Virus record (IMG/VR): IMGVR_UViG_3300035138_000049
Span: 1 to 51,505 of that record
Direction: 5' to 3' (one strand)
Length of the DNA stretch: 51,505 nt
From: a virus
The notes under the pieces are model-generated. The model was not told the origin of the DNA. It saw nothing but the letters and a program-made list of their open reading frames with translations, and did no database searches. Shown here piece after piece: positions 38,389 through 41,986 of this stretch. The stretch's first letter is position 1, and each line of letters begins with the position of its first letter. Position numbers and translations under genes: made by a program.

Positions 38389-38428
38389 CCTTTCGCCCCT
38401 TGGGGCAACTCAACACTAGTCTACTAAT
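38389..38428 (-). repeat. Intercistronic repeat element, copy 2
   Basis: Nearly identical to 30373-30412. On the minus strand it contains the upstream stop TAG, ACTAGT, GTTGAGTTG, a GCCCC-AA-GGGGC hairpin and GAAAGG before the next ATG. A base change in one arm of the stem is matched by a shorter stem in copy 1. Confidence 0.75.
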
Positions 38429-38858
38429 CACCAATCGGCCACACATACGGCAGGCCCGCCGTTTCTGCCCACCCAAACCGATCATACCACGCCGCGTCCT
38501 TGCGCAGCAGGTTCGACCGGTGCGCGGCGTGAAACGCCTCGTTGCCCAACCACGAAGGGTTGGGACCGTGGTAGGATCGTCGCATAAAGAACTCCCCGGC
38601 TTTGTGCTCCAAGCGGCCACCACGCCGGCCCCCACGCCACCGCAGCCGCCACTCGACGTACAACGCGCGACCGTAGCGCACCAAGGCACTTTCGTGCCCC
38701 CGCCACATCTTGACGGCGGGATGGTTGGCCCAACCGTTCGACGCGCCAGTCAAGACATTGTGTATCTGCATCGCCTCGGTGATTTGCTTGTTGAGGCGGC
38801 GGTTGTCGAGACACTGCGCCGATAGCGTGAAGTTGGGGTAGGGGAGAAAAGTTTGCAT
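38424..38858 (-). CDS. Pyrimidine-dimer DNA glycosylase-like protein (MSMEG_6728 type)
   Basis: This 144-residue protein begins MQTFLPYPNFTLSAQCLDNR, followed by RLNKQITEAMQIHNVL and NHPAVKMWRGHESALVRYGR. This is the characteristic pattern of the MSMEG_6728 / T4 endonuclease V-related family. T4 endonuclease V cuts at UV-induced cyclobutane pyrimidine dimers. The conserved early Arg/Lys residues and the NHPAVxMWxG block are present. It is coupled to the AbrB-like gene by a TAATG overlap. A DNA-repair role is probable; enzymatic activity in this subfamily is less certain. Confidence 0.8.
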   Translation of the reverse strand: MQTFLPYPNFTLSAQCLDNRRLNKQITEAMQIHNVLTGASNGWANHPAVKMWRGHESALVRYGRALYVEWRLRWRGGRRGGRLEHKAGEFFMRRSYHGPNPSWLGNEAFHAAHRSNLLRKDAAWYDRFGWAETAGLPYVWPIGD

Positions 38859-39155: not shown

Positions 39156-39368
39156 TCAACGGCAACCGCGCCGCCCCGCCTCCCGTTCCATCTTCGCCTT
39201 GCACCGCCCGCACACCGCCGCGCCATCCGGCAGCGCATCGACGACGCGCGCCCCGCTCGTTATCGGCAGACCGCACAACGGCGCGACCGCTTCGCCATCA
39301 TCAGCGGCGATGTGGTACACGTTGCGGTGGCGTGCGGTGGCGGTGGCGGTTTGGAGGTATTGGATCAT
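39156..39368 (-). CDS. Small zinc-binding phage protein
   Basis: This is a 70-residue protein with one Cys in LCGLPITSG and a Cys-x2-Cys in VCGRCKAK about 25 residues later, plus His in RHRNVYHIAAD. This small fold recurs in phages. The 49132 gene has the same layout (LCGLTL then CKRC), so the two may be paralogues. It overlaps the methylase stop by ATGA. It ends 26 bases before the promoter of the next unit. Function unknown. Confidence 0.65.
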   Translation of the reverse strand: MIQYLQTATATARHRNVYHIAADDGEAVAPLCGLPITSGARVVDALPDGAAVCGRCKAKMEREAGRRGCR

Positions 39369-40354
39369 GGTTGTTCGCTACCCTCAAGCGTGGCCTCTAC
39401 AGACCACCCTAAATCTCGCGCCAGCAGCCGCCATGCAGTCGCAGCCACAGCCGGAACCTGCCCCTGTCCAGAGGCTCTAACCCGCTCCATCCTGGAGGCC
39501 ATCCCATCAACCAGTCTTGCCAGTCCGGGTTCAGTTGCCCACCATTCCCAGGGTTCATGCGGCCCTTCCTGCTCCCCGTCTTCAACAGCCTGCTCAGACC
39601 ATTGGTGTGCATCTTCTCTGCATCTGTCGCGAGCGGCGTCGGTAGCATTTCCCGCTCCCTGACCGCCTGGCCCAGGGTGGGGCCGGCCCCGTATCTCTCC
39701 CGACTCGCCCGACTGGTCGGTCTGTCGTCTTTGGTCGTTGGCGTCGGCCACACGCGCGACGGCTTCGCTTCCAAGCTGTCCTTGACCGCCGCCGGCAAGT
39801 CCCACCCGTGCGTCGCGGTAGCTTTCGCTTGCCCCCACAAACACGTTACGCGCGGCGTGGGCCACAACCCAGAGCCGGTCCCTCTGGTGATTGGCGCCAA
39901 CGGCGGAAGCCGGTATGCAATCCCACCGCACATCAAACCCGCCCTCGGCCAGGTCTCTTTGAACTCGTCCGTAATACCCATGACTGCCCCAAAGGAGCGC
40001 TGGTACGTTTTCCAAATAAACGTACTCTGGCTCGACCTCTCTAATGATGCGAATGGTGTCAGGCCAGAGGTTGCGTTCGTCGTCGCCGGCAAGCTGCTTT
40101 CCCGCCGCGCTAAACGGCTGGCACGGAAATCCCGCAGTGACGATATCCACTGATCCAGCCCAGGGACGCCCGTCGAATGTTCGGGCGTCGTCCCAAATGG
40201 GCGCGTCATCGAGGTATCCGTCCGCGATTCGCTGCTTGAGGACGGAGACGCAGTAGGCGTCGATTTCGACGTAGCAGGCCGTTCGCCATCCGAGCAGCCA
40301 TCGGGTGGCGAGTAATCCACCACCTGCGCCGGGAAATAGAGCCAACTCATACAC
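39365..40354 (-). CDS. dcm: DNA (cytosine-5) methyltransferase
   Basis: This 329-residue C5-methylase has the cofactor motif LALFPGAGGG (residues 5-13), the catalytic GFPCQPFS with Cys78, the ENV motif (115-117) and QRDRLW (157-162). The C-terminal motif-X-like region is GQGQVPAVAATAWRLL, where Asn is more usual than Gln at the second position. It methylates cytosine C5, probably protecting phage DNA. No restriction enzyme is adjacent. A second open frame covers almost the whole gene (see 39409). The target recognition region (about 165-290) is Gly/Arg/Gln-rich and may be atypical because both frames constrain it. Confidence 0.92.
   Translation of the reverse strand: MYELALFPGAGGGLLATRWLLGWRTACYVEIDAYCVSVLKQRIADGYLDDAPIWDDARTFDGRPWAGSVDIVTAGFPCQPFSAAGKQLAGDDERNLWPDTIRIIREVEPEYVYLENVPALLWGSHGYYGRVQRDLAEGGFDVRWDCIPASAVGANHQRDRLWVVAHAARNVFVGASESYRDARVGLAGGGQGQLGSEAVARVADANDQRRQTDQSGESGEIRGRPHPGPGGQGAGNATDAARDRCREDAHQWSEQAVEDGEQEGPHEPWEWWATEPGLARLVDGMASRMERVRASGQGQVPAVAATAWRLLARDLGWSVEATLEGSEQP
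39409..40350 (-). CDS. Overlapping second-frame protein inside the cytosine methylase gene
   Basis: A 313-residue open frame, +1 to the methylase, covers 95% of it. Its product has the features of a phage protein I recall as recurring: SFIWKTYQRS-like (TFIWKTYQRSFGAVMG), ETWPRAGLMCGGIAYRLPPL, repeated LWPTP/VWPTP/LPTP units, and GGQLNPDWQDWLMGWPPGW near the end. These are not random translation of a GC-rich gene. The ATG at 40350 lies four bases inside dcm. Either it is a true dual-coded protein, or database entries of this kind are themselves alternate-frame readings of dcm-type genes. Expression is unproven. Confidence 0.45.
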   Translation of the reverse strand: MSWLYFPAQVVDYSPPDGCSDGERPATSKSTPTASPSSSSESRTDTSMTRPFGTTPEHSTGVPGLDQWISSLRDFRASRLARRESSLPATTNATSGLTPFASLERSSQSTFIWKTYQRSFGAVMGITDEFKETWPRAGLMCGGIAYRLPPLAPITRGTGSGLWPTPRVTCLWGQAKATATHGWDLPAAVKDSLEAKPSRVWPTPTTKDDRPTSRASRERYGAGPTLGQAVREREMLPTPLATDAEKMHTNGLSRLLKTGSRKGRMNPGNGGQLNPDWQDWLMGWPPGWSGLEPLDRGRFRLWLRLHGGCWREI

Positions 40355-40416
40355 GTCTTACCTCCATCACATCACCCCCAACACCCTAAGCCACCACGCC
40401 GCGCCGCAGGGCGTCG

Positions 40417-40593
40417 TCACGGTCGATCATGGTACACCTCCGTTTGCAGCGCCTTCACCAGCCGTATCCGGTGCCCAACGAATGGACGTATCCGTTCCAG
40501 GCATTCGGCGCACATATAGACACGGTCGCCGTCGTGGTAGATGACAAGGCGCGTGGCGTCGTTGTGGCAGTTCTTGGTGGCGCAGGTGTTCAT
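40417..40593 (-). CDS. Small Cys-rich protein
   Basis: The 58-residue protein starts at ATG 40593, overlapping the DndC-like stop (ATGA). Cysteines at positions 4, 9, 28 and 31 (NTCATKNCHN, MCAEC) can bind zinc. The C-terminal half is basic (RIRPFVGHRIRLVKALQ). It is part of a coupled run with the DndC-like protein and two zinc-finger proteins. Function unknown. Confidence 0.62.
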   Translation of the reverse strand: MNTCATKNCHNDATRLVIYHDGDRVYMCAECLERIRPFVGHRIRLVKALQTEVYHDRP

Positions 40594-41738
40594 AGCATCA
40601 ACTCCTGAGTGACGAGTTTGCCATCGTCCGTAAGTGCGACGCGGTCCACCGGTTCGTTGCCCGTAGGCTCGTCGCCGTCCCACTTGTTCGGCCAGGTGCC
40701 GGCCGCGATCAACTCCCTGATGCGCGCCAACTCCTCGTCGTTGATCAGGTCCACACCGGCCCGCGCTTGGATATCCAGCACCCGCGCCAGCCCCATCTCG
40801 CGCGCTTCCATCGTCAGCGGCCCAAGCCGCTGCTGGTTTTTCGAATATTGGCCGTCTTTGCGCATCTCCCCGCCTGGTTTGCGGAGACGGTGCTGCGGCG
40901 CTTTCAGTTCGCGGTAGAGGGGCTTGAGTTCGAGCAGTGGGGCCAGGTGCGCCCACTCGTTGGTTTTCACCAGGCCCTCCAGCGCCGTATCCCTATCGAC
41001 GAGGTTGCAGCCGGCGCAGCCCGTGCGCACGTCCCCATCGCCGTAGACGGCCGCGATATCGGCCACGTCGAACCCGTGCTCGCCAAAATAGAGCCAGTCC
41101 CACACGTGGCAAAGCCGCCAGTGCAGGAGCGGGGCCAGCGTGTCGGCCACACTTTCGGGCGTTGCCTGCTGAAACCATCCCTGCCCACACTCGCCGCTGT
41201 CCTTCGAGCACGACAGCGCGATGCGCTGGTCCCGCGCAGCGCTTTCGCCCAATCTCACGCCGGTGAGCATCAGCAGCTTTTCGCCGGTGGCGTCGCGCAA
41301 GTCCTGCAACTCGCGCAGCATCGGCTCGACCTTGAGCTGCGGCGTACACCAGCGAAAGCGGTTTTTCGGCGGGGGCACGCCCCGGCCAAACATGTAGACG
41401 AAAAACCTATCATCCATCTCCGGCAGCACAACGTGCGCCTCAAGGCCCTGCCCGCGCAGTATATCCAGCAGTCGCATGGCCGACTGCTGGAGCGGCGGTA
41501 GTTCCATGCGCGTATCCGCATAAAGAACGGTGAGCGATTCTGGTGGGTCGATCTTGCCGACCTGGATCGCCCACGCCACGAGCGCGACTGTGGCCGTGCT
41601 GTCCTTGCCGCCGGAGTATGCGATTGCCCAGTGACGGTAGCGCTGGCCGTACTCCGCGACGCTGGCGAGGGACAGGTCGATGGCGTCGGTCAGCGTGAGG
41701 CGCTGATCTTCCCAAAGCGACGGCTGTCTCCCGTTCAC
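40590..41738 (-). CDS. DndC-like PP-loop sulfurtransferase / PAPS-reductase family protein
   Basis: This 382-residue protein starts at GTG 41738 (AGGAGA upstream; GTGA overlap). The PP-loop SGGKDST is at 42-48. The YADTRMELPP strand (73-82), FFVYMFGRGVPPPKNRFRWC (112-131) and LTGVRLGESAARDQR (158-172) correspond to DndC, the enzyme that activates the DNA backbone for phosphorothioation. Cys131 plus C177, C184, C241 and C244 could hold an iron-sulfur cluster. No DndA, B, D or E is present. Phages carry many solitary members of this family, whose role is unresolved. It might divert host sulfur chemistry or evade Dnd defence. Confidence 0.75.
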   Translation of the reverse strand: MNGRQPSLWEDQRLTLTDAIDLSLASVAEYGQRYRHWAIAYSGGKDSTATVALVAWAIQVGKIDPPESLTVLYADTRMELPPLQQSAMRLLDILRGQGLEAHVVLPEMDDRFFVYMFGRGVPPPKNRFRWCTPQLKVEPMLRELQDLRDATGEKLLMLTGVRLGESAARDQRIALSCSKDSGECGQGWFQQATPESVADTLAPLLHWRLCHVWDWLYFGEHGFDVADIAAVYGDGDVRTGCAGCNLVDRDTALEGLVKTNEWAHLAPLLELKPLYRELKAPQHRLRKPGGEMRKDGQYSKNQQRLGPLTMEAREMGLARVLDIQARAGVDLINDEELARIRELIAAGTWPNKWDGDEPTGNEPVDRVALTDDGKLVTQELML

Positions 41739-41986
41739 AAAAACGTCTCCTGTATCTCCTCCACCCTCAGCGCCGCGCGCATCTCCGGCTCGCTCTCCAT
41801 CGCGCCTAGCTCGTAGAGCAGGTCGAGCTTTTCGTGGGGATACGCCAGTTTGTCGAGCGCCTTCTCGACGAGCGGCCACAGGTCGGGGTAGCGGCCGGCG
41901 AGCTGGCCTGATGCGACGGCGATGTCGAGTTGATCCTGTAGGAATTCGGACGTTCGACGCCGTGCGATAACTGCATTACCGTTCAT
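41735..41986 (-). CDS. Small helical hypothetical protein
   Basis: The 83-residue protein is mostly helical (RRRTSEFLQDQLDIAVASGQ, DLWPLVEKALDKLAYPHEKL, DLLYELGAMESEPEMRAALR). It overlaps its neighbours by 4 and 11 bases in a tight run ending with the DndC-like gene. It could be a partner of that enzyme. No family recognised. Confidence 0.6.
   Translation of the reverse strand: MNGNAVIARRRTSEFLQDQLDIAVASGQLAGRYPDLWPLVEKALDKLAYPHEKLDLLYELGAMESEPEMRAALRVEEIQETFL

Follow-up and report, generated by a model that had tools for sequence, protein, structure and literature searches.

Two frames of the dcm gene in the viral window (the whole 51,505-nucleotide stretch of DNA analysed) are both conserved protein-coding sequence, and what lies in the second frame is a genuine gene. 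We consider it very probable that the locus encodes a heterodimeric C5-cytosine DNA methyltransferase from overlapping genes, with catalysis in one subunit (alpha, the annotated frame) and target recognition together with motif IX in the other (beta, the +1 frame); for this enzyme we infer separate translation, complex formation, activity, specificity and biological role. The dual-frame arrangement was found in more than 100 phage and bacterial genes, for which usually one protein is annotated.

Organization of the locus

The alpha ORF (positions 39365–40354, minus strand; annotated-type dcm, C5-cytosine methyltransferase) encodes 329 amino acids from a GTG start and contains motifs I–VIII plus a motif X-like block, and the beta ORF (39409–40350, minus strand, +1 frame) encodes 313 amino acids and starts at an ATG 4 nt further downstream. 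The original prediction of a 313-codon alternate frame over 95% of dcm proved correct, both ORFs being present at these coordinates without a stop. A Shine-Dalgarno-like GGAGGT read from the sequence (40360–40365, minus strand) precedes the GTG of alpha by 5 nt and the ATG of beta by 9 nt, a position from which it could serve both, the use of either start being presumed.

Alpha matched PF00145 over residues 6–168 (E 4.7e-28) and phrog_363 (E 3.1e-59), and it carries the catalytic motifs by which a C5-cytosine DNA methyltransferase is recognised: I, IV (PCQ; 40118–40126), VI (ENV; 40004–40012) and VIII (QRxR, here QRDR; 39875–39886), the last three located on the minus strand by an alignment with M.HhaI over 68–165. 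The motif X-like GQGQVP (39452–39469, minus strand) was placed from the sequence and comparison with homologous loci. Nearly all relatives have GNGQVP or GNAVVP at this motif; the GQGQVP of the window alpha could be a tolerated change or the sign of a weakened enzyme.

Beta residues 55–288 matched phrog_1008 (E 5.5e-25) over profile positions 25–278 of 329, which is most of the profile, and residues 1–308 are 47% identical to a viral locus; no match to Pfam was found. On the minus strand, its ETWPRAGLMCGGIAYRLPPL segment (39898–39957) overlies alpha motifs VI–VIII and is a predicted beta-hairpin, which is locally confident in the AF2 model (residues 131–150, pLDDT about 80). Three cassettes follow, delimited by cassette family analysis and alignment—cassette 1 (WPTPRV...; 39751–39864), cassette 2 (WPTPTTKDD...; 39646–39750) and cassette 3 (LPTPLATDAEK...; 39541–39645)—and then a motif IX-like block (GGQLNPDWQDWLMGWPPGW...; 39451–39540) with near-invariant columns, which overlaps the alpha motif X block where both frames are constrained (all minus strand). 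All three motifs quoted in the original prediction are present in the +1 product, and their supposed recurrence in phage proteins is real: WxTP cassettes and LNPxWVEWLMGxP occur in hundreds of loci. A tblastn search with beta returned Acinetobacter, Microcystis, Synechococcus, Salmonella, Stenotrophomonas and many Paenibacillus larvae phages. Against PDB sequences, the only hits of the beta profile were to KLHL20 and to designed kelch-like repeats; they covered about 20 residues, and we disregarded them.

The families phrog_1008 and phrog_363 are both labelled DNA methyltransferase and are listed apart, and nothing in PHROGs says that one DNA encodes both in different frames; at least in these loci, that is the case. 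An annotation pipeline that disallows overlaps retains just one of the two.

Stop codons in the +1 frame

We gathered viral loci, 80 bacterial loci (found with a beta profile), and Pseudomonas, Acinetobacter, plasmid and E. coli loci. For stop counts, loci were chosen only by an alpha ORF and the end motif in +1, and openness of the +1 frame was no criterion. Within the window, just 3 of 5000 within-gene synonymous permutations of alpha left +1 codons 2–313 open (mean 5.0 stops), and the longest +1 opening was 314 codons at alpha, against 42–181 codons in the 23 other long window genes checked.

Across the family, the second frame of homologues hardly ever contains a stop: between PCQ and LNPxWxxWLMGxP, we counted one +1 stop in 22,265 codons (119 loci) as against 872 in the +2 frame. 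Restricting the count to the 104 non-identical loci gave one +1 stop in 19,677 codons where synonymous permutation predicts 262 ± 11, and 758 in +2 where 850 ± 21 are expected. By sub-zone, observed and expected +1 stops were 1 and 52 from PCQ to +37, 0 and 128.5 over motifs VI–VIII, and 0 and 80.6 from motif VIII to IX. In the N-terminal zone the permutation null is imperfect, as the +2 frame departs from it too (428 vs 321). Upstream of PCQ, the openness of the +1 frame varies by locus and substitution rates bear no sign of selection on it; the strongest support for beta is from the PCQ motif onwards.

Of the 80 bacterial loci, 76 have an alpha ORF in the frame overlapped by beta (L164 among them assigned by eye); the remaining four comprise the fused locus L166, a copy with a broken frame, and two loci that are fragmentary or were poorly read.

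In 74 of 105 loci a +1 stop lies upstream of the end motif (nearly all before PCQ, one at +13), and therefore beta must start inside alpha there. Where the alpha start is followed by a +1 ATG 4 nt on, the +1 frame was open from that point in 51 of 58 loci, compared with 24 of 46 others (Fisher p 6.6e-5, uncorrected for kinship). The N-terminal +1 zone of these 58 dual-start loci held 9 stops against 66.7 expected, the seven stop-bearing loci forming one related group. Since the window is itself a dual-start locus, the 313-amino-acid form of its beta is plausible from the sequence, the alternative being an internal start.

Selection on the two frames

We estimated omega by zone from 35 independent locus pairs, with C5-methyltransferases without beta as controls. 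The controls gave omega_beta of 0.65–0.86 and omega_alpha of 0.17–0.20 in all zones (omega_alpha 0.20 after motif VIII). In the overlapped loci, omega_alpha and omega_beta were 0.30 and 0.91 from the start to PCQ, and 0.34 and 0.82 from PCQ to motif VIII; because controls without beta give 0.65–0.86, an omega_beta of 0.8–0.9 before motif VIII is no evidence for beta. From motif VIII to IX, omega_beta was 0.59 (0.54–0.64) and omega_alpha 1.10 (1.01–1.21), and from IX to the end they were 0.31 (0.23–0.40) and 0.39 (0.29–0.51), respectively, so that the C-terminus is constrained in both frames.

Comparison of synonymous and non-synonymous change, as the original prediction had proposed for both frames, thus found selection between VIII and IX on the +1 frame and not on the dcm frame. 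Alpha, in other words, lacks the conserved VIII–IX recognition region that a C5-methyltransferase has in the same chain (omega_alpha 1.10 vs 0.20 in controls). Differences in this zone numbered 818, 485 and 502 at alpha positions 1, 2 and 3, the reverse of the controls (0.12, 0.06 and 0.30 per codon) and unlike the codon statistics of a shadow frame: the freely evolving position is the third position of beta (alpha position 1), which is the pattern of a gene read in +1. Here the annotated dcm frame is open yet unconserved, and behaves as a passenger.

WxTP cassettes

Between VIII and IX, the +1 frame is made up of blocks beginning W/F/L-x-T-P. Among 730 similar cassette pairs, identity was higher in +1 than in frame 0 in 649 and lower in 3 (means 0.81 and 0.53). 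In 53 cassette pairs, such as L106/L161 (0.62 in +1 vs 0.14 in frame 0) and L133/L148 (0.80 vs 0.33), identity was more than 60% in +1 while the catalytic parts of the genes were less than 55% identical, a sequence pattern that looks like the exchange of recognition modules.

An Acinetobacter plasmid (pPM193665_2; L245:2506–3260) carries a short alpha/beta pair, whose beta is without clear WxTP cassettes and ends LTMKWPLGWTDLKPL; it is possibly a minimal or decaying form.

Split and fused relatives

A pattern census of the fetched loci (not deduplicated) counted 169 as fully and 12 as partly overlapped. In the partly overlapped loci L036, L038, L041, L043, L048, L249, L250, L255 and L303, alpha stops after motif VIII, and the cassettes, IX and X are on beta. 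In two fused loci, L166 (a Pelosinus MAG) and L247 (a viral contig, 85% identical to L166), the later cassettes, IX and X stand behind motifs I–VIII in one ORF. The L166 ORF, of 418 amino acids, matched phrog_363 (E 2e-67) and, over residues 189–400, phrog_1008 (E 7.1e-25), and the AF2 model of L247 (residues 1–357) aligned with M.HhaI 11–327 (Z 23.3, rmsd 2.3 Å, 191 residues), its recognition region being below pLDDT 50. The +1 frame of both fused loci still codes for the N-terminal half of beta and the first cassette before a stop, so that a small second product may exist even beside the fused enzyme. We rejected L279 as a fusion, as its cassettes stay in +1 and the alpha frame has gained IX only.

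In a tree built from the catalytic region, the overlapped genes occur throughout a supported group of 143 rows, with the fused and split kinds nested inside; in rows labelled noIX, the motif was possibly overlooked by the search pattern. Phyla in this group include Pseudomonadota, Bacillota, Actinomycetota, Verrucomicrobiota, Planctomycetota, Nitrospirota and Acidobacteriota. The tree, which is without a proper root, suggests that the overlap is the older state.

An E. coli prophage (PCP07014; L244:1498–2300) carries an annotated dcm pseudogene with an internal stop, in which both frames are broken at nearly one place after motif VI.

Two subunits or another product

In the enzyme that we propose, alpha (frame 0) would supply the catalytic motifs I–VIII plus motif X, and beta (+1) the motif IX-like block together with a target-recognition region of W-x-T-P cassettes. 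Both polypeptides would be translated separately—in the window probably from the GTG and ATG 4 nt apart, with one Shine-Dalgarno sequence—and would assemble into one enzyme methylating a specific sequence, which would probably shield phage DNA from host restriction. Modelled alone, beta had a mean AF2 pLDDT of 54.8 (from an alignment of 53 rows, one of which, L026:1965–2885, is an alpha protein), and Foldseek found no match to this model in the PDB. In hhalign comparison of the IX–X part of beta with canonical IX–X regions, motif X only was aligned (probability 5.5%, P 0.007), and the putative motif IX of beta is named by position and pattern.

A programmed +1 ribosomal frameshift near motif VIII, which would yield a single chain of motifs I–VIII, the beta recognition region and IX with no separate beta, is an unlikely alternative to these two subunits. 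In the split relatives L036, L038, L249 and L255, a shift near VIII would produce a complete I–X enzyme like that of the fused L166 and L247. However, in the fully overlapped class, to which the window belongs, the shifted product would be without motif X, and frame 0 stays open across the entire recognition region to reach motif X. The +1 frame is also stop-free well upstream of VIII (over VI–VIII, 0 vs 128.5, and from PCQ), although a shift at VIII would not require this, and the precedents, M.EcoHK31I and M.AquI, consist of two polypeptides.

We give very little credence to the possibility that beta, though a real protein, has a function independent of alpha (e.g., in regulation or anti-restriction) and came to be overprinted on dcm by chance. 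It would fit the missing Pfam match, but the cassettes and IX are fused in frame behind the catalytic domain in L166, motif X too is on beta in the split relatives, and alpha has no conserved recognition region of its own where beta is conserved.

That +1 is a shadow ORF, held open and seemingly conserved by GC-rich composition and conserved alpha residues, accords with the 62% GC of the window alpha and with other long shadow ORFs in the window, but we reject it as having practically no chance of being right: the synonymous-permutation null fails family-wide (1 vs 262 stops), also at 40–48% GC (L018, L138, L162 and L246), the codon-position pattern is reversed, cassette identity is higher in +1, beta sequence is in frame with the catalytic domain in L166 and L247, and alpha cannot cause the conservation of beta between VIII and IX because it is itself unconserved there. 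Of the two options left by the original prediction, an overprinted pair or a widespread annotation artefact, the stop and selection evidence upholds the former and discards the latter.

Returning to the two-subunit enzyme, we further propose, tentatively and with slightly less than even confidence, that specificity lies wholly in the hidden frame; that beta is modular, with WxTP cassettes swapped between distant phages; that each swap must keep alpha open to reach motif X; and that full overlap is older, the split and fused forms having arisen repeatedly.

Comparison with known methyltransferases

In M.EcoHK31I, the alpha gene contains the coding sequence of the beta subunit in another frame, and M.EaeI is similar; both are set beside the window here by description. 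M.EcoHK31I (YGGCCR) is a two-polypeptide C5-methyltransferase (Lee, Kam and Shaw 1995, as cited in PMC3404938) with motifs I–VIII and X in one polypeptide and IX in the other (PMC3404938). The window ORFs have the same spread, with I–VIII and X in one and the IX-like block, so called by position and pattern, in the other; the second window ORF lies in an overlapping frame and is under selection, as would be expected of the M.EcoHK31I type. They differ in that the window beta is long (up to 313 amino acids, 95% of alpha) with repeated WxTP cassettes, and in that selection on the recognition region acts in the beta frame, whereas the predicted target-recognition domain of M.EcoHK31I has been assigned to the large subunit (PMC3404938). 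M.AquI (CYCGRG) is split I–VIII/IX–X (PMC3404938), which resembles L036, L038, L041, L249 and L255, where alpha has I–VIII and beta the rest of the recognition region and IX–X; M.AquI, however, is split end to end (PMC3404938), whereas here the N-terminal half of beta overlaps alpha in the other frame.

Dual-frame coding within a phage methylase gene is also known from the ShiLan insertion in a mycobacteriophage methylase, where a second frame conceals an HNH endonuclease (PMC11855218); the ShiLan element is mobile and codes for a nuclease, whereas here the overlap is the methylase itself and ancestral-looking. A prophage orphan methyltransferase with predicted YGGCCR specificity has been published (PMC4722110). 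In Paenibacillus larvae phages (Bloom, Diva and others) the same arrangement is deposited as two overlapping CDS, both called cytosine methyltransferase; as far as can be seen from the records, the annotation does not remark on an enzyme of two subunits. Our literature search found no description of such a methylase overlap in phages. What appears to be new, judging by the sequences, is a widespread phage variant of the split C5-methyltransferase with its recognition region coded only in the hidden frame.

Long same-strand overlaps in which both products are conserved are seldom found and difficult to establish; this one is backed by more than 100 homologues from many phyla. As the annotated recognition region is apparently a passenger, motif predictions or structures would be wrong if they were based on the annotated protein alone, and expressing the annotated ORF elsewhere with the second frame destroyed (e.g., by codon optimisation) could give an inactive enzyme. 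Cassette exchange under a double-coding constraint offers a testable model of overlapping-gene evolution. Furthermore, a large natural set of split C5-methyltransferases is of practical interest for targeted methylation, to which M.EcoHK31I has been put before (PMC3439449).

Adjoining genes

On the minus strand, the locus is flanked by a gene for a pyrimidine dimer DNA glycosylase (38424–38858; PF03013, E 9.2e-22) and by one for a 429-amino-acid protein with a PAPS reductase domain (40590–41879; PF01507, E 5.5e-10). Phage members of the PAPS reductase superfamily are sometimes tied to DNA modification.
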